Virus record (IMG/VR): IMGVR_UViG_3300028920_000158
Span: 1-37,157 of that record
Strand: one strand, 5' to 3'
DNA length: 37,157 bases
DNA from: a virus
The notes beneath the pieces were generated by a model. That model had not been told where the DNA came from and searched no databases. It worked only from the letters and a program-made list of their open reading frames with translations. This document shows positions 2,938 through 35,749 of this stretch, one piece after another (position 1 is the stretch's first letter; each line of letters starts with the position of its first letter). Both the position numbers and the translations under genes were made by a program.

Positions 2938-2946
2938 TTGTTAACT

Positions 2947-3022: not shown

Positions 3023-3032
3023 GTTAATTCAG

Positions 3033-3105
3033 TACCCACGGTAAGATTCGAACTTACGTTGACCTGTTTGTAGGACAGGTGCCTTTACCACTCGGCCACG
3101 CGGGC
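3033..3105 (-). tRNA. tRNA-Val (anticodon TAC)
   Basis: Acceptor GCCCGCG/CGTGGGT, A73, CCA not encoded, anticodon loop CCTACAA. Its 5' third also encodes the last codons and the stop of the HNH endonuclease gene that precedes it. Confidence 0.93.
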
Positions 3106-3801
3106 ATTATACTTTTTAATTATACCACAAATTGTACTTTTTGCACAATTTAATTCTCTAGAAATTTCAATTTGTTTTTTACCATCCTTATACATTTTAA
3201 TAACTAAGTCTTTATTAACTTCTTCTGGTCTTTCTTTATATTCCCATTTGTTAATTTCATCCTTATATTTTTCAAATCTTTTTTTATCAAAATGTAAATC
3301 TTGATGACAATTAGCACATAATACTTTACATTTATTAATTTCTTTGATTATTTTATTTTTAACCTCTTCACATGAATTTTCACCTATTTTAATAGTTCCA
3401 CCGTTTAATTTAAATTCTTTATCTTTAATATGATGAAAATCTAAAGCTCTTTTACATTTATTATATTTACATTTTTGGCAACTATTAATATTTTTAAAAT
3501 CTAGTATTATTTTTTTAGATTTATCATATCTTGTTTCTTTATTAATAATACTATTATGCAATTCCATATGACAATTCGAACATAATAATATACATTTTTT
3601 AACTTCTATTTTAAGTAATGACCATCTTTTTTGATAATGTTTACTAATATTAAATTCTTTTTTATTTGGATTTTTATGGTGAAAACTTAAGACCCAAGGT
3701 CTTTTTTCACCACATTTTTCACACTCACCACCCAATAAATTAATAGCCTTAATCTTTTTTGCCCATATTAAAATATAAGCATATTCTTTTTTTGTTTTCA
3801 T
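3085..3801 (-). CDS. HNH homing endonuclease, paralog 1
   Basis: A 238-aa protein with two tandem HNH/zinc-knuckle units. The first is CEKCGE...SFHHKNPNKK...LLCSNCHMELH (residues about 24-82) and the second CQKCKYNK...DFHHIKDKE...VLCANCHQDLH (about 107-168). A Lys-rich linker and a helix-turn-helix (KDGKKQIEISRELNCAKSTI) follow. Proteins of this layout are freestanding phage homing endonucleases. Two close paralogs lie at 5993 and 7501. The stop codon TAA is inside the D loop of tRNA-Val, so about seven codons are read from tRNA sequence. Translation starts after GGAGGATGTGAACT, which lies in a hairpin (separate entry). Confidence 0.85.
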   Translation of the reverse strand: MKTKKEYAYILIWAKKIKAINLLGGECEKCGEKRPWVLSFHHKNPNKKEFNISKHYQKRWSLLKIEVKKCILLCSNCHMELHNSIINKETRYDKSKKIILDFKNINSCQKCKYNKCKRALDFHHIKDKEFKLNGGTIKIGENSCEEVKNKIIKEINKCKVLCANCHQDLHFDKKRFEKYKDEINKWEYKERPEEVNKDLVIKMYKDGKKQIEISRELNCAKSTICGIIKKYNARVAEW

Positions 3802-3802
3802 A

Positions 3803-3844
3803 GTTCACATCCTCCTAATAATATTTATCATTTTAGATGTGAAC
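3803..3844 (-). promoter_or_regulatory. RBS-sequestering hairpin with late-like box, HNH paralog 1
   Basis: GTTCACATC (3836-3844) pairs perfectly with GATGTGAAC (3803-3811), just upstream of the ATG. The loop contains GATAAATA (3822-3829), one base from the T4-type late box, and AGGAGG. The paralog leaders keep the pairing with different bases, which supports a real RNA structure. Confidence 0.7.
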
Positions 3845-3867
3845 TATTACAATTTTAATTTAAAAAT

Positions 3868-3952
3868 TGGTAGGGTAGGTGGGATTTGAACCCACATGCA
3901 CCGTTACGGGAATTATTATGCCTCGCTTATAAGACGAGTCCGATACTACCCT
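3868..3952 (-). tRNA. tRNA-Ile-like (anticodon TAT), no D arm
   Basis: Acceptor AGGGTAG/CTACCCT, A73, encoded CCA, T arm GTGGG-TTCAAAT-CCCAC and an anticodon arm with loop CTTATAA are all intact. Only 7 nt (TATCGGA) separate the acceptor from the anticodon stem, so there is no D arm. The variable region is 26 nt with an internal CCG/CGG stem. By anticodon it reads AUA. It may be functional with an unusual fold, or a rearranged tRNA. Confidence 0.7.
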
Positions 3953-3958
3953 ATAATT

Positions 3959-4043
3959 TGGTGGGCAAGAAGGGATTTGAACCCTTAATCCGTTAGGCAT
4001 ATGCTTCTTAAACATACATGTATTCCAGTTCCATCACTCGCCC
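3959..4043 (-). tRNA. tRNA-Leu (anticodon AAG by register)
   Basis: A class II tRNA with Leu-type D arm (GGAACTGG), A73, encoded CCA, a long variable arm and T loop TTCAAAT. The anticodon stem TATGT/GCATA leaves loop TTAAGAA, giving AAG (CUU). The stem is closed by a U-G pair, so a shifted register cannot be excluded, but all plausible readings are leucine. Confidence 0.82.
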
Positions 4044-4053
4044 ATAATTTTAA

Positions 4054-4125
4054 TATCCCTAATTGGAATCGAACCAATATCGTAAGTTTAGGAAACTTAT
4101 GTTCTTTCCGTTGAACTATAGGGAT
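4054..4125 (-). tRNA. tRNA-Arg (anticodon CCT)
   Basis: Acceptor ATCCCTA/TAGGGAT, A73, CCA not encoded, anticodon loop TTCCTAA, T loop TTCGATT. Reads AGG. Confidence 0.92.
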
Positions 4126-4130
4126 GTAAA

Positions 4131-4208
4131 TGGAAGCGGGAGGGGGATTTGCACCCCCGTTATCCGGCTTATGAGACCGGGCTGGTACTAACTCCAGTCC
4201 ATCCCGCG
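4131..4208 (-). tRNA. tRNA with CAT anticodon, initiator-like
   Basis: Anticodon loop CTCATAA. When read with the encoded CCA, the first acceptor pair is a C1-U72 mismatch followed by six good pairs (GCGGGA/TCCCGC). An unpaired 1:72 position is the hallmark of bacterial initiator tRNA. The anticodon stem CCGGT/GCCGG lacks the full three G-C pairs of initiators. The T loop is TGCAAAT and the D loop has no GG. Initiator Met is favoured; elongator Met or lysidine-type Ile is possible. Confidence 0.8.
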
Positions 4209-4214
4209 ATGTTT

Positions 4215-4286
4215 TGGTATCTCTGGAAGGAGTCGAACCCTCTACCTGCCGTTCGTAGCGGCTAGACTAAATCCGTTAGCAGAGAT
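4215..4286 (-). tRNA. tRNA-Arg (anticodon ACG), reduced D arm
   Basis: Acceptor ATCTCTG/CAGAGAT, A73, encoded CCA, anticodon loop CTACGAA, T loop TTCGACT. The D arm is compact: CTAA/TTAG with a 5-nt loop CGGAT directly after the acceptor, with no room for positions 8-9. Reads CGU and, if A34 becomes inosine, CGC/CGA. Confidence 0.86.
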
Positions 4287-4293
4287 GTAATTT

Positions 4294-4369
4294 TGGTGCC
4301 GTCTCCCGGAGTTGAACCGGATTATCCTGTTCTTCAGACAGGCGCAATGACCCCACTTGCTCAAACGGC
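4294..4369 (-). tRNA. tRNA-Phe (anticodon GAA)
   Basis: Acceptor GCCGTTT/AGACGGC, A73, encoded CCA, anticodon loop CTGAAGA, D stem GCAA/TTGC with GG in the loop, T loop TTCAACT. Confidence 0.94.
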
Positions 4370-4377
4370 AAATAATT

Positions 4378-4752
4378 TGGTGGAGGTGACGAGAATCGAA
4401 CTCGTGTCCACTAATAACACCATAGAAAATACTACAAGTTTAGTTAGTTTTTAACTTATCGGGTTTTAGGAAAACTAACAAACCCAATCAGAACTTTCTC
4501 TGATAGTCAACAATGTCTTTCCATTGTATTGTCAGAATAAGCATTACTCATTCATGTAACATACTTAATTGAAGATATTGACTAGTATGTAATGATTATC
4601 ATCAATATCTTTCGCCACTTTTAATTAAGCAGCTTTTGCGTAAGAATAATCTTCAGCATTTATTGTTCTATCAGATTTTTAAAGAGGCCAACTGATAATC
4701 CTCTACTTGCATTTTCTACATTACTACTAATGTCGAAAACCTGTACACCCCC
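4378..4752 (-). ncRNA. ssrA: tmRNA (transfer-messenger RNA), tag AEDYSYAKAA
   Basis: The 5' end GGGGGTGTACAGGTTTTCGA and the 3' end CGAGTTCGATTCTCGTCACC form the tRNA-like half: acceptor GGGGGTG/CACCTCC, A73 and encoded CCA at 4378-4380. An internal open frame at 4625-4657 reads Ala-Glu-Asp-Tyr-Ser-Tyr-Ala-Lys-Ala-Ala then TAA, the right length and ending for a proteolysis tag (E. coli: ANDENYALAA). The RNA is 375 nt and lies among tRNAs on the same strand. It should rescue stalled ribosomes with host SmpB. The tag ends AKAA rather than ALAA, which could alter protease recognition. Confidence 0.95.
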
Positions 4753-4762
4753 CAGTAATTCT

Positions 4763-4840
4763 TGGTAGCCTTAATGGGATTCGAACCCATACTTATTGAA
4801 GGTTTGAGCTTCAAGCCTCTTCCAGTTGGGCTATAAGGCC
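4763..4840 (-). tRNA. tRNA with Leu anticodon CAA, short variable loop
   Basis: Acceptor GGCCTTA/TAAGGCT, A73, encoded CCA, anticodon stem TGAAG/CTTCA with loop CTCAAAC, T loop TTCGAAT. The variable loop is only 6 nt, whereas bacterial tRNA-Leu has a long arm. By anticodon it reads UUG. It closely resembles the two tRNAs at 4936 and 5061. Confidence 0.88.
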
Positions 4841-4935
4841 GTAATTCATTTGTGCAATATGTTGCACTTTTATATATTATTCTATTAATAATATAACTTT
4901 TTTTCTAAAAGTGCAAGTTAACGCACTTTTTAATT
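4841..4935 (-). promoter_or_regulatory. tRNA spacer with terminator-like hairpin and weak promoter
   Basis: Going downstream on the minus strand, AAAAGTGC/GCACTTTT forms an 8-bp stem with an 8-nt loop and a short T run (about 4908-4929). Next come a possible TTGCAC / 15 nt / TATATT promoter (4890-4916) and a second hairpin GTGCAA/TTGCAC (about 4853-4868). The 15-nt spacing is short, so the promoter is tentative. It may re-start or tune transcription of the tmRNA half of the cluster. Confidence 0.35.
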
Positions 4936-5014
4936 TGGTAGTCTTGGAGAGATTCGAACTCTCACTATTTCTTCGTTCTAAGCGAAGCGCCTCTACCAAT
5001 TGGGCTACAAGACC
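4936..5014 (-). tRNA. tRNA with Leu anticodon TAG, short variable loop
   Basis: Acceptor GGTCTTG/CAAGACT, A73, encoded CCA, anticodon stem CTTCG/CGAAG with loop CTTAGAA, T loop TTCGAAT, short class I variable loop. By anticodon it reads CUA and probably other CUN. It is not an amber suppressor, which would need anticodon CTA. Confidence 0.88.
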
Positions 5015-5060
5015 ATGTAATGTTTCTATACAAAAATGTATATATTTGTTACTTGAAATT

Positions 5061-5138
5061 TGGTAGCTCTGGAGAGATTCGAACTCTCACTTGTTGAAGT
5101 TTTAAGCTTCAAGCCTCTACCAGTTGGGCTACAGAGCC
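5061..5138 (-). tRNA. tRNA with Leu anticodon TAA, short variable loop
   Basis: Acceptor GGCTCTG/CAGAGCT, A73, encoded CCA, anticodon stem TGAAG/CTTCA with loop CTTAAAA, T loop TTCGAAT, short variable loop. By anticodon it reads UUA, likely a very common codon in this AT-rich genome. It shares the body of the CAA and TAG tRNAs, so the three probably arose by duplication. Confidence 0.88.
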
Positions 5139-5145
5139 ATGATTT

Positions 5146-5222
5146 TGGTAGGTTCGGTGGGAGTCGAACCCACATCGTACAGAGTAAGAATCTGCCATAC
5201 TTGTCCATTATACTACGAACCC
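5146..5222 (-). tRNA. tRNA-Lys (anticodon CTT)
   Basis: Acceptor GGGTTCG/CGAACCT, A73, encoded CCA, anticodon loop TTCTTAC on stem GCAGA/TCTGT, T loop TTCGACT, class I variable loop. Reads AAG. Confidence 0.88.
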
Positions 5223-5231
5223 ATGATTTAG

Positions 5232-5319
5232 TACCCCCGGCAGGATTCGAACCTAGCGACGTGCCATTATGACATCTAGATTAAAAGTCTAGTCCCTTCG
5301 ACCACTCGGACACGGAGGC
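5232..5319 (-). tRNA. tRNA with Lys anticodon TTT on a class II body
   Basis: Acceptor GCCTCCG/CGGGGGT, A73, CCA not encoded, perfect anticodon stem CTAGA/TCTAG with loop CTTTTAA. The D arm (TCCGAGTGGTCGAAGGG) and a 20-nt variable arm with a 4-bp stem are of the Ser/Leu kind. The anticodon reads AAA (Lys), but the body is unlike any normal tRNA-Lys, so the amino acid attached is uncertain. Confidence 0.82.
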
Positions 5320-5327
5320 GTATAATT

Positions 5328-5403
5328 TGGCGGGTAAGACGAGATTCGAACTCGCATCTTCCAGATCGACAGTCTGGCGTTTTAGCCGTTAAACTACCTA
5401 CCC
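5328..5403 (-). tRNA. tRNA-Asp (anticodon GTC)
   Basis: Acceptor GGGTAGG/TCTTACCC region, G73, encoded CCA, anticodon loop CTGTCGA on perfect stem CCAGA/TCTGG, T loop TTCGAAT. Confidence 0.95.
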
Positions 5404-5410
5404 GTAAAAG

Positions 5411-5483
5411 AACTCCTGGTGGGATTCGAACCCACATAAATCTTGATTAGAAGTCAAGTGCCTATCCATTAGACTACAGGAGC
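5411..5483 (-). tRNA. tRNA-Arg (anticodon TCT)
   Basis: Acceptor GCTCCTG/CAGGAGT, U73, CCA not encoded, anticodon loop CTTCTAA on stem CTTGA/TCAAG, T loop TTCGAAT. Reads AGA, a favoured Arg codon in AT-rich phages. Confidence 0.93.
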
Positions 5484-5534
5484 ATAAATGTGCTTTACAC
5501 CGAAACAAAATGTCAAAGAACTTCTGTTTGCGAT

Positions 5535-5562
5535 AATATACATTAAATGTACTTTAACGCAA
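5535..5562 (-). promoter_or_regulatory. Possible promoter inside tRNA cluster
   Basis: TTGCGT (5557-5562), 16-nt spacer, TATATT (5535-5540), in the 90-nt spacer between tRNA-CAT (5574) and tRNA-Arg (5411). The -35 box is weaker than in the seven clear promoters. TTTGCG and CGCAAA flank it as an inverted repeat. It may boost transcription of the lower half of the cluster. Confidence 0.35.
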
Positions 5563-5573
5563 ATGAAAACTTT

Positions 5574-5651
5574 TGGTTGTAGCTATGGGAGTCGAACCCA
5601 TCTATTCTTTCTTATGAGGAAAGCGCCTTAATACCGCCCAGCCCAGCTACA
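5574..5651 (-). tRNA. tRNA with CAT anticodon (elongator Met or Ile2)
   Basis: Acceptor TGTAGCT/AGCTACA with a normal first pair, A73, encoded CCA, anticodon loop CTCATAA on stem CTTTC/GAAAG, D loop with GG and T loop TTCGACT. The paired 1:72 position makes it an elongator-type tRNA. Met is likely; lysidine-modified Ile is possible but less needed given the TAT tRNA at 3868. Confidence 0.9.
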
Positions 5652-5661
5652 ATAATTTTTA

Positions 5662-5732
5662 AGCTCCAGCACGGAATCGAACCGTGTCATGTTACTTACG
5701 AAATAACTGTTCTCCCATTAAACTACAGGAGC
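5662..5732 (-). tRNA. tRNA-Thr (anticodon CGT)
   Basis: Acceptor GCTCCTG/CTGGAGC with one mismatch (position 6), U73, CCA not encoded, anticodon loop TTCGTAA, T loop TTCGATT. Reads ACG. Confidence 0.9.
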
Positions 5733-5742
5733 AAAACTTTTA

Positions 5743-5815
5743 AGCTTCTAGAGGGAATCGAACCCATCTTCTCATTCTTACCAAGAACGTATTCTCGCCA
5801 TTAAACTATAGAAGC
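5743..5815 (-). tRNA. tRNA-Thr (anticodon GGT)
   Basis: Acceptor GCTTCTA/TAGAAGC, U73, CCA not encoded, anticodon stem CGTTC/GAATG with loop TTGGTAA, T loop TTCGATT. Reads ACU/ACC. Confidence 0.9.
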
Positions 5816-5821
5816 GAAACT

Positions 5822-5897
5822 TGGTAGGGATGGATAGAGTTGAACTATCGTCTTATGTGTATCAGACATATGTTCTATACCGTTGAACTACACCCCT
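5822..5897 (-). tRNA. tRNA-Ile (anticodon GAT)
   Basis: Acceptor AGGGGTG/CATCCCT, A73, encoded CCA, anticodon stem TATGT/ACATA with loop CTGATAC, T loop TTCAACT. Reads AUU/AUC. Confidence 0.94.
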
Positions 5898-5904
5898 GTT
5901 AATT

Positions 5905-5992
5905 TGGAGCCAGCAGAGGGATTCGAACCCCCGTTGTCTTATTCAGATCCAGATTACAAATCTGGTGCATTCGACCGCTATGCAATGCTGGC
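5905..5992 (-). tRNA. tRNA with Thr anticodon TGT on a class II body
   Basis: Acceptor GCCAGCA/TGCTGGC, U73, encoded CCA, perfect anticodon stem CCAGA/TCTGG with loop TTTGTAA giving TGT (ACA). The variable region is 16 nt and the D arm has the spacing seen in tRNA-Tyr. A one-base shift to GTA (Tyr) would break the stem, so Thr is preferred. The discriminator U73 is shared with the two other Thr tRNAs here. HNH paralog 2 ends at the base before this tRNA. Confidence 0.83.
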
Positions 5993-6688
5993 TTAATAAC
6001 TTTTTTCTTTTTTATATTTTTTAATTATTCCACATATTGTACTCTTAGCACATTTTAATTCTTTTGTAATTTCTACTTGTTTTTTACCTTCATTATACAT
6101 TTTAATAACTAAATTTTTATCTATTGGTTTTTGAAATTCTTTATATTCCCATTTATAAATTTCATCTTTATATTTTTCAAATTTTTCTTTATCGAAATGT
6201 ATATCTTTATGACAATTAGAACATAAAACTATACATTTGTTTAATTCACTAATTATTTTATTTTTAACATCTTCACATGAATTTTCACCGATTCTAATTT
6301 TACCAATATTAAAATCTTTATTTTTAATATGATGAAAATCTAACGAACCATTATAATCATTATATTTACACCGTTCACAACCATAAATACATTTTAGTTC
6401 TAATAATTTATTTTTACTTTCACTATTTCTGTTTACATTAGTATTATGAATTTTTCTGTGACAATTTCCACATAATAAATTACATTTTTTAATTTCTATT
6501 TCTATCGTTGACCATCTATAATTTGAAATTTTACCTATGTCAATTTCTTTATTATTATCTGCATGGTGAAATTCTAAAACCCAAATTCTGTTTTCTCCAC
6601 ATTTTTCACATTTACCACCCAATAAATTAATAGACTTAATCTTTTTTGCCCATTTTAAAATATAAGCATATTCGTTTTTTGTTTTCAT
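5993..6688 (-). CDS. HNH homing endonuclease, paralog 2
   Basis: A 231-aa protein with the same domains as the genes at 3085 and 7501. The first unit is CEKCGE...EFHHADNNK...LLCGNCHRKIH, the second CERCKYND...DFHHIKNKD...VLCSNCHKDIH, followed by the C-terminal helix-turn-helix KKQVEITKELKCAKSTI. The stop TAA (5993-5995) touches the first base of the Thr-anticodon tRNA at 5992, so the gene fills the space between two tRNAs. It probably spreads by cutting tRNA-cluster DNA of competing phages; this is inferred from family and position. The start follows GGAGGTGAACT in a hairpin. Confidence 0.85.
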   Translation of the reverse strand: MKTKNEYAYILKWAKKIKSINLLGGKCEKCGENRIWVLEFHHADNNKEIDIGKISNYRWSTIEIEIKKCNLLCGNCHRKIHNTNVNRNSESKNKLLELKCIYGCERCKYNDYNGSLDFHHIKNKDFNIGKIRIGENSCEDVKNKIISELNKCIVLCSNCHKDIHFDKEKFEKYKDEIYKWEYKEFQKPIDKNLVIKMYNEGKKQVEITKELKCAKSTICGIIKKYKKEKSY

Positions 6689-6689
6689 A

Positions 6690-6731
6690 GTTCACCTCCG
6701 TTTACATATATTTATTATTTTAGAGATGAAC
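6690..6731 (-). promoter_or_regulatory. RBS-sequestering hairpin with late-like box, HNH paralog 2
   Basis: GTTCATCTC (6723-6731) pairs with GAGGTGAAC (6690-6698) with one U-G wobble at the position that is A-T in paralog 1 and C-G in paralog 3. The loop holds AATAAATA (6709-6716), a variant late box. Confidence 0.68.
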
Positions 6732-6748
6732 TTTAACAATTTTAATTT

Positions 6749-6835
6749 TGGCGGAGAAGCGGGAATTCGAATCCCGAAGCCCATACGGACGGTAGATTAG
6801 CAATCTACTGGCTTACCAATTAGCCATACTTCTCC
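6749..6835 (-). tRNA. tRNA-Ser (anticodon GCT)
   Basis: Class II tRNA: acceptor GGAGAAG/CTTCTCC, G73, encoded CCA, anticodon stem GTAGA/TCTAC with loop TTGCTAA, long variable arm, T loop TTCGAAT. Reads AGU/AGC. Confidence 0.95.
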
Positions 6836-6842
6836 ATAAATT

Positions 6843-6917
6843 TGGTGGAACCTATGGGAGTCGAACCCATCAATGAAACTTTGCAAGAGTTCCCCGCCTC
6901 CCCGGCTGTTAGGCCCC
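6843..6917 (-). tRNA. tRNA-Ala (anticodon TGC)
   Basis: Acceptor GGGGCCT/AGGTTCC includes the G3-U70 wobble that defines alanine identity. A73, encoded CCA, anticodon loop CTTGCAA, T loop TTCGACT. The D region is GC-rich and short. Confidence 0.88.
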
Positions 6918-7007
6918 GTATTTCTAATTAAAACAGGATGAAATTTTGTTTTCATTTCAAGTGAAAATTTTTTGTTTGCTGAACTCATCCTTCATTTAAT
7001 TTTAATT
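6918..7007 (-). other. 90-nt tRNA spacer with inverted repeat
   Basis: Between tRNA-Pro and tRNA-Ala. AGGATGA and TCATCCT flank an AT-rich interior and could close a long hairpin. No convincing tRNA, promoter or reading frame is visible. Confidence 0.3.
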
Positions 7008-7085
7008 TGGTCGGAGTTGAGGGATTTGAACCCCCGACTTCTGCGTCCCAAACGCAGCGCTCTATCCAGACTGAGCTAAACTCCG
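7008..7085 (-). tRNA. tRNA-Pro (anticodon TGG), copy 1
   Basis: Acceptor CGGAGTT/AACTCCG with the C1-G72 pair typical of proline, A73, encoded CCA, anticodon stem CTGCG/CGCAG with loop TTTGGGA, T loop TTCAAAT. Confidence 0.95.
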
Positions 7086-7096
7086 TTTTAATTTTA

Positions 7097-7170
7097 TCAG
7101 CGCCCTGGGAGTCGAACCCAGATGTTCTCGCTTCCAAAGCGAGTAGTTCCTTCCATTAACCTAGACGCTG
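7097..7170 (-). tRNA. tRNA-Pro (anticodon TGG), copy 2
   Basis: Acceptor CAGCGTC/GGCGCTG, again C1-G72, A73, CCA not encoded, anticodon stem CTCGC/GCGAG with loop TTTGGAA, T loop TTCGACT. The body differs strongly from copy 1, so it is not a recent duplicate. Confidence 0.9.
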
Positions 7171-7180
7171 TTAATTTTAA

Positions 7181-7256
7181 GGGAAGGTACATTTGTCACG
7201 ATGCATCATGATAAAATGTTTTCATCATATCTCCATTGCTAGCTGGAGACCTTCCC
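7181..7256 (-). ncRNA. tRNA-like structured element, no valid anticodon
   Basis: A 76-nt element closed by a perfect 8-bp stem GGGAAGGT/ACCTTCCC. It has a D-arm-like hairpin CTCC/GGAG, a long middle hairpin TGATGAAA/TTTTATCA and a possible TGCAT/ATGTA third arm. It has tRNA size and spacing and lies between tRNA-Glu and tRNA-Pro, but has no TTC T loop, no 7-nt anticodon loop and no CCA. It may be a decayed tRNA or a tRNA-derived small RNA. Confidence 0.5.
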
Positions 7257-7263
7257 CAAAATT

Positions 7264-7338
7264 TGGTAGCGACAAGGGGAGTTGAACCCCTGTAGTCGGT
7301 TCGAAAGACCGATGAACTAGCCGTTGTTCTATGCCGCC
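7264..7338 (-). tRNA. tRNA-Glu (anticodon TTC)
   Basis: Acceptor GGCGGCA/TGTCGCT, A73, encoded CCA, anticodon stem TCGGT/ACCGA with loop CTTTCGA, T loop TTCAACT. Confidence 0.94.
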
Positions 7339-7345
7339 ATGATTT

Positions 7346-7421
7346 TGGCTGGTATCCAGGGATTTGAACCCCGATTCTTTCGGTTAACAGCCGAACGCAC
7401 GACCAATTGTGCTAGATACCA
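7346..7421 (-). tRNA. tRNA-Asn (anticodon GTT), copy 2
   Basis: Acceptor TGGTATC/GATACCA, G73, encoded CCA, anticodon stem TTCGG/CCGAA with loop CTGTTAA, T loop TTCAAAT. More canonical than the copy at 2740. Confidence 0.94.
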
Positions 7422-7430
7422 GTAATTTTT

Positions 7431-7505
7431 TGGGGTGATATTTCGGATCTGCCCCGAACCCACAACCTTCACAAGATTGAATGCTTCTACTACACCAATA
7501 TCACC
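7431..7505 (-). tRNA. tRNA-His (anticodon GTG), elbow-less
   Basis: Acceptor GTGATAT/ATATCAC plus an encoded extra G at -1 opposite C73, the histidine signature, and encoded CCA. Anticodon stem CAATC/GGTTG with loop TTGTGAA. The T arm TTCGG/CCGAA carries loop GGCAGAT, and the D loop TAGTAGAAG lacks GG, so the normal elbow contact is missing. Its 5' end supplies the TGA stop of HNH paralog 3. Confidence 0.9.
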
Positions 7506-8187
7506 ATAATTTTTTAATAATTCCGCTAATTGTACTTTTAGCACATTTGAGCTCTTTTGAAATTTCAATCTGTCTTTTACCATCCTTATACATTTTAATA
7601 ACTAAATCTTTATCAACTGGTTTTGGTTGCTCTTTATATTTCCAATTATAAATCTCATCTTTATATTTTTCAAATTTTTCTTTATCAAAATGTAAATCAG
7701 CGTGACAATTAGCACATAAAACATTACATTTATTTATTTCGTTTATTATTTTTTCTTTAATCTCTTTACACGAATTTTCTCTTATTCTTATTCCACCTCC
7801 CAACATAAAACCTTTTTCTTTTTCATGGTGAAAATTCAAAGAATTATTACATTTATTATACTTACATATTTCACAACCAACCGATTGAATAATTTCTAAA
7901 AAAATTTTTTTACTACTTGGGTCTATTGGGTTTTCTTTAACATGAATTTCTTGGTGGCAGTTTAAACACAATAATTGACATTTTAAAACTTCTTTTTTAA
8001 TTTTAGACCACCTGTAATTTTTGCATGTTTTAATATTAAATTCTTTCTTGTTTGGATTTTTGTGATGAAAAGTTAAAACCCAAGGCCTTTTTTCACCACA
8101 TTTTTCACATTTACCACCTAATAAATTAATAGCTTTAATTTTTTTATTCCAAGCTAAAATATAAGCATATTCTCTTTTTGTTTTCAT
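7501..8187 (-). CDS. HNH homing endonuclease, paralog 3
   Basis: A 228-aa protein with the same layout as paralogs 1 and 2. The units are CEKCGE...TFHHKNPNKK...LLCLNCHQEIH and CEICKYNK...NFHHEKEKG...VLCANCHADLH, then a helix-turn-helix with KRQIEISKELKCAKSTI. The stop TGA (7501-7503) is the second to fourth base of the tRNA-His gene, so the gene ends inside the tRNA 5' end, as in paralog 1. Its first unit is closer to paralog 1 than to paralog 2 (HHKNPNKKEFNI is shared). Start follows GGAGGTGAACT in a perfect hairpin. Confidence 0.85.
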   Translation of the reverse strand: MKTKREYAYILAWNKKIKAINLLGGKCEKCGEKRPWVLTFHHKNPNKKEFNIKTCKNYRWSKIKKEVLKCQLLCLNCHQEIHVKENPIDPSSKKIFLEIIQSVGCEICKYNKCNNSLNFHHEKEKGFMLGGGIRIRENSCKEIKEKIINEINKCNVLCANCHADLHFDKEKFEKYKDEIYNWKYKEQPKPVDKDLVIKMYKDGKRQIEISKELKCAKSTISGIIKKLW

Positions 8188-8188
8188 A

Positions 8189-8230
8189 GTTCACCTCCGT
8201 TTATATATATTTATCATTTTAGAGGTGAAC
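8189..8230 (-). promoter_or_regulatory. RBS-sequestering hairpin with late-like box, HNH paralog 3
   Basis: GTTCACCTC (8222-8230) pairs perfectly with GAGGTGAAC (8189-8197), which contains the Shine-Dalgarno. The loop holds GATAAATA (8208-8215). Transcripts started from that box would lack the 5' arm and free the ribosome-binding site. Confidence 0.7.
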
Positions 8231-8248
8231 TTTTAACATATTTTAATA

Positions 8249-8321
8249 CAGGCTGAGCAGGATTTGAACCCACATCGTGTTGATTTGGAGTCAACTGTTT
8301 TAGCCATTAAACTACCAGCCT
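8249..8321 (-). tRNA. tRNA-Trp (anticodon CCA)
   Basis: Acceptor AGGCTGG/TCAGCCT, G73 as expected for Trp, CCA not encoded, anticodon stem GTTGA/TCAAC with loop CTCCAAA, T loop TTCAAAT. Confidence 0.94.
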
Positions 8322-8329
8322 ATTATATT

Positions 8330-21573: not shown

Positions 21574-22498
21574 TTAACTTAATTTTTTGATATTATCACT
21601 AAACTGTTCCCAACCATTCATTAATTTTAACAACTTGTTTTTTACAAAAAAATCTAAAATTTTCTTACTTTCCATAGTGGAAAGTTCGTAGTTGTTATAT
21701 GTATTTATAATATTTTCTTTGTATTCTTCGGGTATATAATTTAAGTCAATTAACTTCCTATTTCTTGCATAGTTATCTTTAATTTCCTTATCTTTATTTA
21801 AATAATCAGTTAAACCTTCAGTCAATATTTTCTCTGCGGTTTTGATACCAACCTTAGGTTTAATAGGTGGAATATCATCAGATTTATCACCCGTAATAAC
21901 CTTTAACTCAAGATTTCTTGATGGATTAAGACAGTTAACTATTTTCCTTTTAATAGGATCATATTGCTTAATGTTATCTGTAATAAGTTGATTTAAATCA
22001 CCATCACTTGATATAATAGTCACTTTATTATTTTTAAAAGGACCTTTACAAAGTACAGCAATAACATCATCAGCTTCACATCTATCCACATTTATAACAT
22101 ATAATGTAGAAAAAACTTCTTTAATTTGATTAGTAAAATCATTAAATATTGGAAAAAATTTTTTAAAATCAACCTTTGTTTTTTCTCTTGCACCTTTTCT
22201 TTTGTTTTTATAATCCTTAAAAATTTCATATCTCCATGAAGGCTTTTGGTCAAATGCCAATACAACTTTTTCTGGTTGAAATTTTTCGATAGATGTGAAA
22301 AGGCTATTTACAAACAGATGCCTCCAAAAAAAAAAATCCACTTGTGTTATCTTCTGGATTTGAAAAAATAGCACTAAATAATGTTCTATATGCTAAGTTA
22401 TGTGCATCTATTAAAAGTATACCATTTTTATTGGTATTACTTTCTAGTATTTTTCTATCTTCAACGTCAAATAATTCTGATAAACTGTTAATTTTCAT
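21574..22498 (-). CDS. rnh: RNase H / 5'-3' exonuclease (T4 Rnh-like), frameshifted at T11
   Basis: The N-terminal part (GILLIDAHNLAYRTLFS) starts at ATG 22496-22498 after AAAGGATT. The rest (LAFDQKPSWRYEIFKDYKN, CEADDVIAVL, IISSDGDLNQL, ITGDKSDDIPP) follows T4 RNase H in order, with its Asp metal ligands. The two parts are in different frames joined at eleven T's on the coding strand (22326-22336). Removing one T restores ...GFFFWRHLFVNSLF..., which aligns with T4. Transcriptional slippage, a real mutation or a homopolymer sequencing error are all possible. It would remove RNA primers and act with gp32. The upstream GIY-YIG gene overlaps the start by 11 nt. Confidence 0.8.
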
Positions 22499-23324
22499 AT
22501 TTTTTAATCCTTTCAATTTTAATATTTTTATATTTAATTATATTAGTATTATATTTATAAAATAAATTTCGTATATATTTTCTTTGTTTTATATTATAAA
22601 ATATATAAAAATCTTTATTATTAGATAAAATATATTTATATATTGCCTTAGGATTTTTAAATCCAACTGATAATTTTTTTTCTATTCTGGTTTTACTAAT
22701 TTTATTATTATGATCTATTGACCATTTAATTCCCATCATTCTATTACTTTGTTTTTGTTTTTGTTCTTTTGTTCTTTTTTTACCTACATTTTTACCAATC
22801 ATTGATTTACTTTGTTTTTGTTTTTGTTCTTGGCTTAAATGTGTTCCTAATAATCTTTTTCTTAAATCATTTTTAACTTTTTCAGAAACTATTCTACCTT
22901 TATTTGCTTTACTTATTTTTTCTTTAGTTTCTATTGTATGTGTTTTTCCGTACATAGGATGGTTTTTACCTTTTAATTTATGATTACCAAAATTTGGGTT
23001 ATCTTTACCATATCTATGAGTTCCAAACATAGGATTATTTTCACCGGCTACTCCACAACCGCCTTTATTTATATTATAACCAACTTTAGAATTTCTAGCA
23101 TTTAATACATCTATCCAATATATTTCACGAATATCAATCAAGTTTTGATCTTTATTTGATATATGTTCAAGTATCTCTCTTTTAAAATTTTCTTTACCAT
23201 ATTCTTTTACAGCTTTTAAAAATCTGTGACCAGAACCTAAATATCCATCATCTGCACTTGTATAGTGTTGACCTATATAAATTTTTCCATTGACTAAATT
23301 TGTTGTTTTGTAAATAATACTCAT
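22488..23324 (-). CDS. GIY-YIG homing endonuclease, paralog A
   Basis: A 279-aa protein from ATG 23322-23324, chosen for the GAGGAGG upstream and for the match to paralog B (MSIIYKTTN/MSISEGFIYKTTN). The N-terminal domain IIYKTTNLVNGKIYIGQH is the GIY...YIG module, with the catalytic Arg and Glu expected in KRE and REIYWIDVLN. The C-terminal half carries NUMOD3-type DNA-binding repeats (NPMFGTHRYGKDNPNFG, HTIETKEKISKAN). It is a freestanding homing endonuclease inserted just before RNase H. Its leader RNA is elaborate (separate entry). Confidence 0.88.
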   Translation of the reverse strand: MSIIYKTTNLVNGKIYIGQHYTSADDGYLGSGHRFLKAVKEYGKENFKREILEHISNKDQNLIDIREIYWIDVLNARNSKVGYNINKGGCGVAGENNPMFGTHRYGKDNPNFGNHKLKGKNHPMYGKTHTIETKEKISKANKGRIVSEKVKNDLRKRLLGTHLSQEQKQKQSKSMIGKNVGKKRTKEQKQKQSNRMMGIKWSIDHNNKISKTRIEKKLSVGFKNPKAIYKYILSNNKDFYIFYNIKQRKYIRNLFYKYNTNIIKYKNIKIERIKKYEN

Positions 23325-23419
23325 AAGATGCCTCCTCATAGGCTAAAAGTAGATGTATAGATAATCTTTGATGAGGCAAAGAAACCATGCCTGGCTGTCT
23401 CCATACATCTATATTTATA
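23325..23419 (-). ncRNA. Structured leader RNA of GIY-YIG paralog A with late promoter
   Basis: TATAAATA is at 23412-23419. Downstream: P1 TAGATGTATGGA (23400-23411) with TCTATACATCTA (23350-23361), 12 bp including one G-U. Inside it are P2 CCA/TGG (23385-23394) and P3 CTTTG/CAAAG (23366-23381), whose loop CCTCAT can pair with ATGAGG (23334-23339) overlapping the Shine-Dalgarno, a pseudoknot. Paralog B's leader has the same architecture with compensatory base changes. The function is probably repression or timing of translation. Confidence 0.65.
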
Positions 23420-24762: not shown

Positions 24763-25343
24763 AAATTAACTCCTATTAAAAATTCCTCTAGTGTTTTAAC
24801 TTTAAATTTAAATTTTTTTGGTTTCTTTGTTTTTTTAGTCAGCATTGCTTTCTTAGGTGTAAATGTTTTAGCGAACAAGCAATTATTTTTACCTATTGGA
24901 ATTATTTTTTGAATATAAATTTGATATTTGTCATAAACCCATTTGGAATTAATACTAAAAAGCCTTGTCATGTTTTGCATATCCCATGCTGGTTTTACTT
25001 CAATATTCGAAATATTATTTTGTGCTATAAATGATATTTTATCTAATTTATAATTATCTTCTAAGTTATAATAAAAAATACCATAAGATTTAATATTCCA
25101 CATTATTTGATAATCATATGTATAGATATGCTCCCTTAATATTGATGTTTCTTTTTCAACATTTTTAGTTTTTAATTTATCTATCCATTTATATGAAACT
25201 GCGTTTGATAGTAAAATAGAATCTGGATGAAATATGAAATTATCTATAAAATTATTATCTTCTAATTCTTGCAAATAATAATATACTAAAAGCTCTTCTT
25301 CGCTGTCAAAAACAATATTGTTATATTCTATTTTACTTTTCAT
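24759..25343 (-). CDS. Putative PD-(D/E)xK nuclease-like protein
   Basis: A 194-aa protein. SEEELLVYYYLQEL at residues about 14-27, YTYDYQIMW (Asp about 77) and ISNIEVKPAW (E-x-K at about 115-117) are placed like the E, D and ExK residues of PD-(D/E)xK nucleases such as TnsA or gp4. The C-terminal tail is Lys-rich. It may be a phage DNA-processing or packaging-related nuclease. Its first 20 residues resemble the broken fragment at 26193-26296 upstream of the homing endonuclease. Confidence 0.5.
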   Translation of the reverse strand: MKSKIEYNNIVFDSEEELLVYYYLQELEDNNFIDNFIFHPDSILLSNAVSYKWIDKLKTKNVEKETSILREHIYTYDYQIMWNIKSYGIFYYNLEDNYKLDKISFIAQNNISNIEVKPAWDMQNMTRLFSINSKWVYDKYQIYIQKIIPIGKNNCLFAKTFTPKKAMLTKKTKKPKKFKFKVKTLEEFLIGVNL

Positions 25344-26079
25344 ATTTTAATTTTCTTGTTATTGTTATGTTTTTAAATATAATAACATTTGTGTGTTTTT
25401 CTCTAAATTTTCCATTAATATTATTTCTTTCATTTTTTGTAAAAAATTCCCAATAATTTTGATTATTAGATAATTCAAAATAATATTTATTTGATGGTGA
25501 ATTATATTTAGTTTGGGCATTTTTCATTTTTTCTATTGTTGATTGTTTGTGATGTTTTCCAAATAAAGGATGTTTATTCCCAATTTTTGATTCTCTTATT
25601 TTTTGTTTAGTTTCATTAGATCTTTTTTTGCCTGTATTTATTTGTCTTAGTTTTTCAATTTGTTCTTCAGTTAAAGGTTTTCTTTTTTTACCTTTATTAT
25701 TTTTGCTAATTTTATTTTTTGTTTCTTCAGTATGATGTTTTCCTAAAAAACCCATAAATGTTTTTCGTATATTTTCTTTATTGGGATGATTTGTAAAATT
25801 ATCACCACCAATACCACCTTTAGCTATATTATATCCAATTTTAGAGTTTCGTGCATTTAATTTATCAATCCAATATTCTTCTCTTTTACCAACATCAGAA
25901 CTACAATATTCAATTATTTCTCTTTTAAAATTTTCTTTACCATATTTATCAACGGCATAACTAAGTATTAAACCTGAACCTAAATATCCATCATCTGCTG
26001 AAGTTTTATGTTTTCCAATATAAATCTTATTATTAATTAAATTAGTAGTTTTGTAAATAAATCCTTCAGAAATACTCAT
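25333..26079 (-). CDS. GIY-YIG homing endonuclease, paralog B
   Basis: A 248-aa protein. FIYKTTNLINNKIYIGKH forms the GIY-YIG module, KREIIEYCSSDVGKREEYWIDKLN holds the catalytic Glu region, and HHTEETKNKISKNNKG with further repeats are NUMOD3 elements. It is clearly a paralog of 22488-23324; the shared start MSI...YKTTNL(V/I)N and AARNSK(I/V)GYNI type segments show recent divergence. It ends 11 nt inside the next gene and has a structured leader with TATAAATA. It acts as a freestanding mobile endonuclease. Confidence 0.88.
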   Translation of the reverse strand: MSISEGFIYKTTNLINNKIYIGKHKTSADDGYLGSGLILSYAVDKYGKENFKREIIEYCSSDVGKREEYWIDKLNARNSKIGYNIAKGGIGGDNFTNHPNKENIRKTFMGFLGKHHTEETKNKISKNNKGKKRKPLTEEQIEKLRQINTGKKRSNETKQKIRESKIGNKHPLFGKHHKQSTIEKMKNAQTKYNSPSNKYYFELSNNQNYWEFFTKNERNNINGKFREKHTNVIIFKNITITRKLKYEK

Positions 26080-26183
26080 AAGATACCTCCCAATTAGGTA
26101 ATTTGTAAGAGATACTTTGATAATCTTTATTGGGTAAAGAAAGGTTGCGAACCCTGTCTCAAGGTATCCTATAAGTATTTATA
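26080..26183 (-). ncRNA. Structured leader RNA of GIY-YIG paralog B with late promoter
   Basis: TATAAATA at 26176-26183. P1 is GATACCTTGA (26159-26168) with TCAAAGTATC (26111-26120), 9 of 10 paired. P2 is GGTT/AACC (26143-26153) with a 3-nt loop, and P3 is CTTTA/TAAAG (26125-26139). The P3 loop region CCCAAT can pair with ATTGGG (26089-26094), which runs into the GGGAGG Shine-Dalgarno. The flanks GACAG, TTT and ATTA match paralog A while the stem bases differ. Confidence 0.65.
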
Positions 26184-31997: not shown

Positions 31998-33404
31998 TCA
32001 AAATTCGATTAATGATTCAAGTGTATTGGATTCAAGGTTAATTTTATTACCCCAACCCATAACCTCAAAGAATCGTTCTATCACACTTTGAAATGCTACT
32101 TGCCATTGTTGGTCATAATCAATAGCAAACATATCATCAAATTCTTTCGGCCATTGTTCCACAAATCCAATTATGTTTTGGTTTAACATATTTCTACTTG
32201 GAACAACATATATATATTTAATTTTAGTTCCATTATCAACTGGTTGATATGGTAAGTCTAATTTCTTTAAAACGTAATTATAATTGATTGAAGCTCTATT
32301 TGCGATTGGTAGACCCTTCATGTATGTGATTCCTTTTTTCAAATACGTTCCAACAGGTCTTGACCATTTTTTATAATCAGAAACTCCGGTGGGGATAGCA
32401 ATTTCATCAACATCAGCTTCTAAAAATTCTTTTTTAATTTTAATCATATCTTCAATAACAGCATTTTTATCTTTTGTGTCAAATATTTTTTTAATTATAT
32501 TTTTAATTTTAGTTCTGAAAAATTTAGGTGTATCAGTCCTGACAACTTCGATACCAGTAATATCGATTTTTCCTGGATGAAATGATTTTCCTTTTTTGTG
32601 GATAGTAAGGTCTGCATATTTCTTTTTAGTTAGAATAATCTTTTGTTGAATGATTTTTTCATATCTAAAATCGATTATTTGTTTTACGCCGTAACTAGCA
32701 GCGTATTTATCTAAAACCTTTTCAAAAAATGGTTCAAAGAATTTCTTTATTAACCTCAATGCGAACTTTTCAAATTCTTTATCATCCTTAAATGTAATTC
32801 CTAAACTTTTAATAATTTCATCCAAACACAAATAGTTTGAATCGGTATCTATAAGTATAACTAAATCTTTTTTGAGTGGTTTAATATTTTCAACATCTGG
32901 ATATAGTTTCTTTGCAACAACCTGCCAATATTGTTTTAAATATTGATTAATACAGTTAGAAAGATACTTGATTAAATTTTGTCCGCTTAATGTTACTGCG
33001 ATTGCATTATTAACATTAAAGAAATTAAAATACTGGTTTCCTAAAACTCCGTAGATTGAGTTGATTAATATTTTTCTTATCTTCTGTTGAGCATCATAAT
33101 AATCAGACTTAAGTCCATCATCAACAACTTCATCAACAATATTTTTGTTATATTTATTATATAATTCGTCCGTTTTTACACCATTTTCTAACTTATCTGC
33201 AATATCTTTTTTAGTCTCCAATATCATGCGTTCATTAAATATTTTCTCTACAATATCTGGCAAAACACCCTTTTCTTTTTTGTAATAAATTCCACCAATA
33301 TGAAAATTTCCTTTGGCTGTATCCCATGTTTTATATTCAGATAAAGGTGTTTTTATTAAATCACATTCTATTAATTCAAAATTTTTACCTTTAATTATAT
33401 TCAT
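31998..33404 (-). CDS. 43B: DNA polymerase PolB, C-terminal fragment (gp43B)
   Basis: A 468-aa protein carrying the second half of a T4-type family B polymerase. Motif B KILINSIYGVLGN (residues 111-123) binds the incoming nucleotide, and motif C LIDTDSNY (D186, D188) supplies catalytic Asp. The C-terminus ends SLIEF, similar to the clamp-binding tails of T4 gp43. The N-terminal 45 residues lead into KGVLPDIVEKIFNERM, which in T4 follows motif A. It must pair with the 34397-35749 fragment to make a working enzyme. The ribosome-binding site is weak. Split gp43 genes are known in some T4-related phages. Confidence 0.9.
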   Translation of the reverse strand: MNIIKGKNFELIECDLIKTPLSEYKTWDTAKGNFHIGGIYYKKEKGVLPDIVEKIFNERMILETKKDIADKLENGVKTDELYNKYNKNIVDEVVDDGLKSDYYDAQQKIRKILINSIYGVLGNQYFNFFNVNNAIAVTLSGQNLIKYLSNCINQYLKQYWQVVAKKLYPDVENIKPLKKDLVILIDTDSNYLCLDEIIKSLGITFKDDKEFEKFALRLIKKFFEPFFEKVLDKYAASYGVKQIIDFRYEKIIQQKIILTKKKYADLTIHKKGKSFHPGKIDITGIEVVRTDTPKFFRTKIKNIIKKIFDTKDKNAVIEDMIKIKKEFLEADVDEIAIPTGVSDYKKWSRPVGTYLKKGITYMKGLPIANRASINYNYVLKKLDLPYQPVDNGTKIKYIYVVPSRNMLNQNIIGFVEQWPKEFDDMFAIDYDQQWQVAFQSVIERFFEVMGWGNKINLESNTLESLIEF

Positions 33405-33418
33405 TGTTATTCATCTTT

Positions 33419-34345
33419 CTAGAATTTTATACCATATTTTAAAAAATTTAATTCATCTATTATATTTTTAATTTTATTAAACTTCGTATATTTTATTCTT
33501 ATTAATTTTATTTTATTTTTTTTACAAAAACGAGTTTTAATTTTATCTAATTTTTTTGTTTCTTTTAGTCTTTTTAATCCTCCAAAATGTTCTATAATTT
33601 TAAAATGCTGAATCCCATCATATTCTATACATATATTAAGTTCAGGTAAATAAAAATCAAACGATAGTAATTTTTTATTATAACATTCTTTAAATTTATA
33701 TTCATGAATATATTTAATTTTAAATTTTATTAAATATTTTCTTATTTCTTTTTCTCCTTTAGATTCATTACAAACTGGACATCCATTTTTATGATTAATA
33801 TGTTGAATTAAACTTTGTTCGAAAACTCCATGTTTTTTACATATTATTTTAACTTTAGTATAGTTATTAATATAATTAATTAAACTATAATCATATTGAT
33901 TTCCATGAATTATTTTAGCTTTTTGTATAAAAATTTCATTGTTAAAAGAATCTCTTTTAACATGATTATTAACCATGCATTTAGAACAACCATGCTTTCT
34001 TAAATGATTTTGTGGTTCTTGCCAAAATTCGCCATGTTCTGGACAAATTATACAAACTTTAGTATGATTATTTTTATATTCAACTTTTGAATAGTTATAA
34101 AAATTATTATGAACTAAATTTGCTTTTTCAATAAACTCGTTTTTTTCTTTTTTCTTTTTTTCAACTAAACATTGTAAACATGCATATTTATTTCGTAAAT
34201 GATTTGATGGTAATTGTTCAAAAACTCCATGTTTGGGACATTTAATTTTAATTTTTGTTCTACTATTAATATATTCTGAAATAGAATAATCAAAAAAATT
34301 ATTATGAAATTCTTTAGCTTTTTTTAAAAAAATATCTTTATACAT
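33419..34345 (-). CDS. Homing endonuclease in split polymerase gene (DUF723 repeats + VSR-like)
   Basis: A 308-aa protein with three repeats of about 65 residues of the pattern A..H...Y.YS...Y.N..TKV.I.C..HG.F.Q...HL...GC..C (starting near 6, 73 and 145). Each ends in CxxC; these match DUF723, a DNA-binding repeat of homing endonucleases. A C-terminal nuclease domain has EKEIRKYL, SFDFYLPELN and IEYDGIQHF, giving E, D, ExD and H as in EDxHD/VSR-like enzymes. It sits exactly between the two polymerase fragments and is probably the agent that split the gene. Confidence 0.85.
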   Translation of the reverse strand: MYKDIFLKKAKEFHNNFFDYSISEYINSRTKIKIKCPKHGVFEQLPSNHLRNKYACLQCLVEKKKKEKNEFIEKANLVHNNFYNYSKVEYKNNHTKVCIICPEHGEFWQEPQNHLRKHGCSKCMVNNHVKRDSFNNEIFIQKAKIIHGNQYDYSLINYINNYTKVKIICKKHGVFEQSLIQHINHKNGCPVCNESKGEKEIRKYLIKFKIKYIHEYKFKECYNKKLLSFDFYLPELNICIEYDGIQHFKIIEHFGGLKRLKETKKLDKIKTRFCKKNKIKLIRIKYTKFNKIKNIIDELNFLKYGIKF

Positions 34346-34401
34346 ATAGAATCCTTTAAATTATGATGTTAATAGTATGTATCCTTCTATATATATTTAT
34401 A
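34343..34401 (-). promoter_or_regulatory. Late promoter and start-codon hairpin of the polymerase-gene endonuclease
   Basis: TATAAATA at 34394-34401 lies within ATAATATTATAAATAT and contains the TAA stop of the upstream polymerase fragment. ATATAGAA (34385-34392) can pair with TTCTATAT (34344-34351), which overlaps the ATG, so the start may be masked in longer transcripts. Confidence 0.55.
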
Positions 34402-35749
34402 ATATTATATCTGAACTTGTGAGATTTTTTATTAAAATATTTTCAATTTTACCGTTTTCATGTTGAACTTGAACAATATCATCTTCTTTAACAATTTTTT
34501 CAACACCATTGTAAATCAACTTATATTCTTTACCATTAACATATGTTTCAGGACTTATATTAAACATTCTTATTAATGTTGGGTACATTGATTTAACATC
34601 GAAATTAATAACATAATCATAATGACCAACCTTAGCCATAACATATGCACCAGGAAATTTATCTTCCTTTTGTTGACTTCTATCCCTTGACGGATAAACC
34701 ATATTTCTTTCATGTAGATATTTTATAACATAACCGCTAATGAGAGATATTGATGAGAATATATTATCAAAAGGAATTAATGCCTGATAACAGAAGTTAA
34801 TTGCAAGTTCAATATGTTTCTTTTTATCTTCTATCTTTTTCGTTAGTAATACGTCTTGCACATTATACTCGACATATTTATTCCAATCATTTTGCCACAA
34901 AGTATTGATTGTTCCTTCGTATTCTAACTTGCCTTCACCAACTTCTTCCATACCAATTGCATGTAGACTATATGAAACTTTTTTATCATAAACAAAGTTC
35001 TTATATAAGTCTTGACCATCGAGTGTTGCTATTCCACCAATTATATATCCACCACGAGCAATGTGATAACCACCTGCTCGGTTTTCTTTATATACATTAA
35101 CTGGCGATAATGAAGCCTGTACATTTAGTCTATTCATCCTGTTAATTAAATATGGTATATCAAAAAATCTACAAAACCATCCTGTTATAATATCAAATCT
35201 TTGCTTTCTGAAAAATGCTACAAATTTTTCAAGCATTAATTTTTCATTTTCACAATAATGATAATTCTGAACTAAATCAGAATTGCCGGTATATTCTCTG
35301 ATACCAAATGTATTAGTTTCACCTGTTTTAGATGAATGTATTGTTATTAAATTAACTGGGTATTTAACTTCTTCGGGTAAAGGAAATTCACCATCTGATT
35401 CAACCTCAATATCTATTGTGCAAATATTGAAATTTTTTAAATCTGCTTTTAGTTCTTTTCCTTTATATCTTTTTTGTAGAAACTTAACATCTTCTGAAAT
35501 ATCTGTTTCATATGTTTTGATAGTCTTTGCTAAGTTTTTCATTGCAAAAATATCAGAAGATGTTTGTAACTTAACTGGTGTGCCATAAATATCGACCATA
35601 CCAGACTTAGGATTTTTTGATTTATCTTCTAAATAATATTCTATTTCGGGATGTAGTTCTTCTCTGTGAGTCTTTCCTTTATCATCATAATACCAATGAA
35701 ATATTTTATTACTGGAAGCCTCGTAATAAATTCTTTTAAAACCGCTCAT
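34397..35749 (-). CDS. 43A: DNA polymerase PolB, N-terminal fragment (gp43A)
   Basis: A 450-aa protein with the N-terminal and 3'-5' exonuclease domains (Exo I TIDIEVESDGE with D113 and E115; Exo II DIITGWFCRFFDIPYL; Exo III near YNVQDVLLTKKIED) and palm motif A NFDVKSMYPTLIR (about residue 380). After NISPETYVNG it has about 45 residues (NGVEKIVKEDDIVQV...) absent from T4 and then stops, before motifs B and C. Those are in 31998-33404. The stop codon is part of the late promoter of the inserted endonuclease. The start overlaps nothing and lies 1 nt after the DHH gene. Confidence 0.9.
   Translation of the reverse strand: MSGFKRIYYEASSNKIFHWYYDDKGKTHREELHPEIEYYLEDKSKNPKSGMVDIYGTPVKLQTSSDIFAMKNLAKTIKTYETDISEDVKFLQKRYKGKELKADLKNFNICTIDIEVESDGEFPLPEEVKYPVNLITIHSSKTGETNTFGIREYTGNSDLVQNYHYCENEKLMLEKFVAFFRKQRFDIITGWFCRFFDIPYLINRMNRLNVQASLSPVNVYKENRAGGYHIARGGYIIGGIATLDGQDLYKNFVYDKKVSYSLHAIGMEEVGEGKLEYEGTINTLWQNDWNKYVEYNVQDVLLTKKIEDKKKHIELAINFCYQALIPFDNIFSSISLISGYVIKYLHERNMVYPSRDRSQQKEDKFPGAYVMAKVGHYDYVINFDVKSMYPTLIRMFNISPETYVNGKEYKLIYNGVEKIVKEDDIVQVQHENGKIENILIKNLTSSDIIL

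Follow-up and report, generated by a model that had tools for sequence, protein, structure and literature searches.

Two leaders of phage homing endonuclease genes are copies of a folded RNA that is widespread and apparently undescribed

Genes for homing endonucleases rank with the most frequent selfish genes of large phages, and for the free-standing enzymes it is largely unclear how translation is controlled. Repressive RNA structures that hide the ribosome-binding site (RBS) have been published for T4 endonuclease mRNAs, as has a promoter-containing hairpin over the initiation site of I-TevI, segB, and mobE; the I-TevI protein also occupies an operator lying over the late promoter of its gene, and how translation of the other free-standing T4 endonucleases is controlled has been called not obvious (PMC2988022). 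Concealment of a phage-endonuclease RBS by RNA structure, and its release through a late promoter, is already known.

Here we describe two leaders, A and B, which comparison of sequences indicates to be copies of a folded RNA that occurs widely beside phage homing endonuclease genes and has apparently not been described. With the RBS-sequestering hairpins of the T4 type (I-TevI, I-TevII, I-TevIII, segB, Aeh1 mobE) they share an endonuclease gene, an adjoining late promoter, and an RNA structure covering the RBS, and leader B and most of its GIY-YIG relatives further resemble I-TevI in having a predicted promoter-containing hairpin over the start codon. However, whereas the I-TevI-type hairpins are described as simple, the new family has a conserved three-way junction that would act by a kissing loop, accompanies endonucleases of several unrelated families, and apparently also exists as an antisense RNA. 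Neither Rfam nor the open-access literature searched yielded this family, the kissing loop, the occurrence with unrelated nucleases, or the antisense form.

Two leaders in a fragment of a T4-like phage

The window (the whole 37,157-nucleotide stretch of viral DNA analysed) encodes T4-like gp32, UvsX, a gp44-like protein, primase, and helicase, together with 30 tRNAs and a tmRNA, from which we conclude that this 37-kb fragment belongs to a large T4-like phage. The tRNA and tmRNA genes form a dense array on the minus strand (386-8322). Both leaders precede genes for GIY-YIG/NUMOD3 homing endonucleases, and their features are as follows.

23322-23419, minus: leader A, ahead of endonuclease A
23412-23419, minus: T4-type late promoter box, TATAAATA
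23350-23411, minus: three-way-junction core (sequence reading, fold, model match)
23411-23400 with 23361-23350, minus: P1, UAGAUGUAUGGA with UCUAUACAUCUA, 12 pairs, one of them G-U
23399-23395, minus: GACAG
23394-23385, minus: P2, CCA/TGG, loop GGCA
23384-23382, minus: TTT
23381-23366, minus: P3, CTTTG/CAAAG, with loop L3 CCTCAT at 23376-23371
23365-23362, minus: ATTA
23330-23343, minus: hairpin P4, GCCT[ATGAGG]AGGC (minimum-energy fold; family statistics for L3-L4 and P4)
22488-23324, minus: GIY-YIG/NUMOD3 homing endonuclease A (PF07460 NUMOD3, E 2.6e-9)
26077-26183, minus: leader B, ahead of endonuclease B
26176-26183, minus: late promoter box, TATAAATA
26111-26168, minus: three-way-junction core (sequence reading, core pattern, model match)
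26168-26159 with 26120-26111, minus: P1, one C-A mismatch
26158-26154, minus: GACAG
26153-26143, minus: P2, GGTT/AACC
26142-26140, minus: TTT
26139-26125, minus: P3, CTTTA/TAAAG, loop CCCAA(T)
26134-26129, minus: L3 CCCAAT, complementary to ATTGGG (26094-26089)
26124-26121, minus: ATTA
26084-26100, minus: hairpin P4, TACCT[AATTGGG]AGGTA (P4 survey of the family)
26070-26180, minus: alternative 20-bp helix, AAATACTTATAGGATACCTT (26180-26161) with GAGGTATCTTATGAGTATTT (26089-26070)
25333-26079, minus: GIY-YIG/NUMOD3 homing endonuclease B (PF07460 NUMOD3, E 1.3e-11)

The order of elements in leader A, its stems P1, P2, and P3, and the match between CCTCAT and ATGAGG had been proposed from the sequence of the window alone (hereafter the original prediction), and all were found at their sites on the minus strand. 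The same order was likewise confirmed for leader B with other stem bases, the P2, L3, and SD-side bases having changed in compensation (in A, CCTCAT with ATGAGG; in B, CCCAAT with ATTGGG). A search of the window for the core pattern gave exactly two occurrences, and 100 shuffles gave none. The minimum-energy fold of leader A alone consists of P1, P2, P3, and P4, the last holding the Shine-Dalgarno sequence (SD) GGAGG (23335-23331). As the z score is only -1.65, the fold is unproven from this single sequence and its proof rests on the family. Against the covariance model, the cores of A and B score 48.7 bits (E 1.2e-7) and 36.3 bits, respectively, each being itself among the model-building sequences. 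Gene A probably starts at ATG 23324 rather than at the upstream ATG 23339, which lies inside a paired element.

The contact between L3 and the SD region had been predicted as a pseudoknot. While the complementarity holds, a simple pseudoknot is the poorer reading, since ATGAGG (23339-23334) is itself the loop of P4, a hairpin that had been overlooked; given the minimum-energy fold of A and the support from the family, the contact would be a loop-loop kiss.

The RNA family and the covariation of its helices

Viral contigs of IMG/VR were scanned with the core and several P1 variants, and a structure-aware script retained 79 distinct copies: 52 in sense orientation (class 1), 25 antisense to a gene (class 2), and 2 doubtful; the last two scans contributed four further copies. 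As in leaders A and B, GACAG, TTT, and ATTA remain constant around three stems of varying sequence. Covariation was assessed on a composite alignment of the paired positions in 49 sequences. All 18 pairs tested vary on both sides, and 98.8% of cells are paired, versus 38-54% when columns are slid by 1-3. The former value is inflated because the L3 register was chosen to maximise pairing and copies were selected using P1-P3; the four pair types seen at each of four kiss positions, however, are not explained by selection alone.

Because the copy sets were partly picked by pairing in P1, P2, and P3, the safest tests are the unselected first-scan hits and the late scans. The first scan fixed only GACAG, TTTCTTT, and AAAGATTA, leaving P1, P2, and the L3 target free. 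Where P1 reached at least 4 bp, P2 of at least 3 bp was present in 35/41 hits and a downstream match to L3 of at least 6 bp in 29/41, as against 11/41 and 3/41 in hits without P1. The two late scans, which used new P1 sequences, yielded four hits with P2 of at least 3 bp and P3 of at least 4 bp: three of class 1, each with an L3-SD match of 6-8 bp and TATAAATA, and one of class 2 with an L2 match of 8 nt. With about 80 copies, compensatory change in every helix, and concordant unselected and prospective checks, the proposal that phage homing endonucleases have a structured regulatory RNA of their own is borne out at the level of comparative evidence, although the copies are not independent and many contigs are metagenomic fragments without hosts.

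The expectation that no named motif has this architecture also stands, there being no Rfam 15 family match. In the window and 19 copy-bearing loci, the gathering threshold was reached by matches to tRNA and tmRNA and by a single group I intron match alone; the B12-box core (RF00174) gave no match at that level. The group I catalytic core (RF00028) was not found around A or B, where a search at E up to 10 returned just two weak matches far under threshold. A small self-cleaving ribozyme, whose cleavage would separate L3 from the SD or free an antisense RNA, would be in keeping with a three-way junction of hammerhead-like size with roughly a dozen invariant unpaired bases; we consider it very unlikely, as no Rfam ribozyme matches and the sequence offers no hint of where cleavage would occur.

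Outside IMG/VR, the model matched none of 13 named jumbo or T4-like phage records picked by endonuclease homology (including GAP32, KP13-7, phiR1-37, pf16, Ac42, RB18, PA-SR01, and Lak-B6), and scans of bacterial genomes gave nothing beyond one chance match. A concatenated blastn search with 47 copies against annotated phages matched Enterocloster phages (CB457P1 and relatives), and inspection of CB457P1 showed a real copy, just 3' of a group I intron match (the only such match, recorded for L217) and 5' of an I-TevI-like gene. A match in Aeromonas phage BUCT695 falls within an annotated gene and remains unconfirmed as a copy. In six copies (L112, L119, L121, L127, L136, and L138), P3 carries GAAA opposite AGTA between CCC/GGG-type pairs, a variant resembling the bulged-G (loop E) motif.

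Sense copies, the Shine-Dalgarno contact, and late promoters

Class 1 copies lie in sense orientation directly 5' of their gene, which is mostly a homing endonuclease. The tie to GIY-YIG genes made in the original prediction is real but not exclusive: besides NUMOD3/GIY-YIG genes, those of the DUF723/DUF4379, LAGLIDADG_3, DUF7487, and I-HmuI NUMOD-like families are preceded by the RNA, as is at least one RepA_N-like gene (L005), and two genes (L103 and L219) have no Pfam match. One fold across GIY-YIG, DUF723-type, LAGLIDADG, DUF7487, and TnpB-like genes (the last in class 2) suggests a general, transferable control cassette, and the family offers testable pairings for each copy as well as a new target for phage annotation.

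The L3 target in class 1 overlaps the SD, with a mean downstream match of 6.19 bp versus 4.33 bp when partners are swapped, and is itself the loop of the SD-bearing hairpin P4, as in TCAATTTT[TAGGA]GGAATTGA (L018) and ATTATTTT[TAGGA]GGAATAAT (L045). P4 scores 4.56, versus 3.82 in shuffled (maximum 4.22) and 3.72 in swapped controls (maximum 4.11), a modest statistic for a stem of only 3-5 bp in many members. In many copies L3 and L4 are loops of 6-7 nt with full complementarity, a geometry that suits a kissing complex. Palindromic 4-mers (TGCA, TCGA, AGCT, GGCC, GATC) are frequent in the P2 loops of class 1 (39/57 versus 24.5 shuffled), so that RNA dimerisation is possible; the matter is unsettled because the shuffle, an imperfect control, does not preserve stem pairing.

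We propose that A and B represent a new family of phage RNAs and act in cis to hold down the translation of selfish endonuclease genes. The three-way junction (P1, P2, and P3 joined by GACAG, UUU, and AUUA) would position L3 to kiss the SD-containing loop of P4, and the SD, covered by both L3 and the P4 stem, would be less accessible to ribosomes. Sequence comparison shows the fold, the complementarity of L3 to the SD and of L2 (in class 2) to the initiation region, the association with these genes, and the promoter boxes; formation of the kiss and the resulting repression are inferred, as is the role of the junction, whether scaffold or sensor. Translational silencing of selfish nucleases by a loop that covers the initiation site is the most likely function, in the absence of wet-lab data; against it, the initiation sites at L005 (RepA_N-like), L219, and L103 are not those of recognisable endonucleases.

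The same contact could instead activate translation by opening P4. A kiss near the SD activates translation in IncI-alpha repZ, one class 1 copy does precede a RepA_N-like gene, and in most copies just the first two G of GGAGG fall within the kiss. Yet P3 and P4 loops that are mostly 6-7 nt and fully complementary have a geometry that keeps P4 closed, and the published T4 endonuclease leader structures are repressive (PMC2988022), so that we regard activation as unlikely.

T4-type late promoter boxes lie 5' of P1 in both classes, 7-18 nt ahead of the core. In class 1, TATAAATA is found 5' of 23/52 copies (1.2 in shuffles) and never on the other side, and for A and B such a promoter stands immediately upstream of the endonuclease gene. 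The usual spacing of T4 late promoters would place the RNA start at or within the 5' strand of P1, and the late promoter would accordingly set the RNA 5' end at or inside this stem. A start so near P1 would also fit a stabiliser of the 5' end, or a nuclease-resistant fold akin to flavivirus xrRNA, whose class 1 has in outline the same topology, a three-way junction with L3 paired 3' of P1 as a pseudoknot. We hold this to be quite improbable: the 3' partner in our class 1 is at the SD, class 2 has no such partner, the Enterocloster copy sits just 3' of a group I intron match with no late promoter box seen, and xrRNAs differ in sequence and in biology.

Returning to silencing, in leader B and most GIY-YIG relatives a longer transcript reading through from upstream may also fold its promoter sequence into a hairpin that hides the start codon, much as I-TevI does. 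In the 20-bp alternative helix of B, AAATACTTATAGGATACCTT includes part of the late promoter and GAGGTATCTTATGAGTATTT comprises the SD, start codon, and first codons; the helix excludes both P1 and P4, and the minimum-energy fold of leader B uses much of it. Among 12 GIY-YIG-type copies, B and eight others can pair the promoter region with the SD, start codon, and first codons, and their SD and start are predicted to be unpaired at 0.00-0.09 in the long transcript versus 0.16-0.36 in the late one. The remaining three (A, L161, and L224) have no clear helix of this kind by prediction, and in leader A it is not convincing (p 0.05). A general start-codon-burying helix for all class 1 copies has just weak support (13.8 versus 12.2), coming mainly from the GIY-YIG subgroup, and was not adopted.

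The DNA polymerase of the window (31998-35749, minus strand) is split over two ORFs, 34397-35749 and 31998-33404, which are separated by an endonuclease-like gene of the DUF723/DUF4379 type (33419-34345, minus strand). Judged by eye, this gene lacks the three-way-junction leader and would instead have a simple hairpin of the I-TevI kind: TATAAATA lies directly 5' of it (34345-34402, minus strand), and ATATAGAA can pair with TTCTATAT at its start codon.

Antisense copies and the role of the junction

The existence of a second class, antisense to its endonuclease gene, refines the earlier picture. In the 25 class 2 copies, no SD target exists for L3, and the RNA is antisense to an endonuclease or TnpB/Cas12f-like gene on the opposite strand whose start lies upstream of GACAG at a distance of 27-41 nt. 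Several of the genes match GIY-YIG, NUMOD3, LAGLIDADG, or DUF7487, three match Cas12f1-like_TNB (i.e. TnpB-like proteins), and five are without a Pfam match. A reading of these copies as simply lacking a target was dropped when their P2 loops were found to match the initiation region of the divergent gene. L2 repeats this region in the same sense and is hence complementary to the mRNA of that gene; in the 22 copies with a full divergent gene, the match is 7.0 nt versus 4.93 nt when swapped (maximum 5.41). TAAATA boxes occur on the motif strand in 22/25 copies, against 2.3 in shuffles, and 19/25 have inward-facing boxes on the opposite side, against 4.1 in shuffles.

The simplest reading is an antisense RNA with its own promoter, the transcription itself being inferred: the same RNA, as an antisense transcript, would act in trans, its P2 loop covering the site where translation of the adjacent endonuclease or TnpB-like gene begins. 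With convergent promoters flanking a complementary leader, and with the inferred loop-initiated pairing near the start site, the arrangement recalls the antisense RNAs that regulate plasmid replication and the mRNAs of type I toxins (RNAI/RNAII, CopA/CopT type). Unlike in those systems, the initiation region matched by the contacting loop lies outside the overlap, and the core is also used in cis at other loci. One fold in sense and antisense forms would be an unusual evolutionary case.

Since both orientations occur, and since the late promoter of I-TevI is covered by an operator that the enzyme itself binds (PMC2988022), a DNA-level element, either an endonuclease operator or a recombination site, might merely resemble an RNA. 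Two RNA signatures leave this hardly credible: compensatory change in the pairs of L3 with the SD and of L2 with the initiation region, and an excess of G-U over A-C pairs on the class 2 motif strand (13 versus 2). The G-U count is biased upward because the finder allowed G-U; an unfiltered listing gave the same trend by eye.

Taken as a whole, an RNA family that silences in cis by an L3-P4 kiss, acts as antisense in class 2, is expressed from a late promoter, and adds I-TevI-like control of read-through transcripts is an account we consider probable, though well short of certain. Against it, the strong conservation of the junction would seem to exceed the need of a pure scaffold. The junction could instead belong to a true riboswitch or protein sensor: on binding a ligand or a protein of the phage, it would strengthen or undo the kiss between L3 and the SD, and the endonuclease would be made under one condition only. 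Across 49 copies, some 12 junction bases never change, whereas all stems vary (an invariance due in part to selection by those bases), and a junction domain whose loop kisses the loop of an RBS hairpin has the layout of the cobalamin riboswitch L5-L13 contact, a likeness with comparative support only. The family works like that riboswitch but is not a member, differing in core sequence, size, and gene context and lacking a known ligand. A sensor is a serious contender, if the less likely reading: no ligand-related genes lie nearby, no Rfam riboswitch matches, and class 2 retains the junction without cis control of a downstream gene. We put forward only tentatively the broader idea of a single portable module that silences unrelated selfish nucleases, including TnpB/Cas12f-like ones, in cis through L3 or as antisense through L2, with the junction as a new sensor or catalytic core. 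At four loci on phage contigs (L050, L064, L220, and L221), TnpB/Cas12f-like genes of 400-540 aa lie 27 nt from a class 2 RNA.
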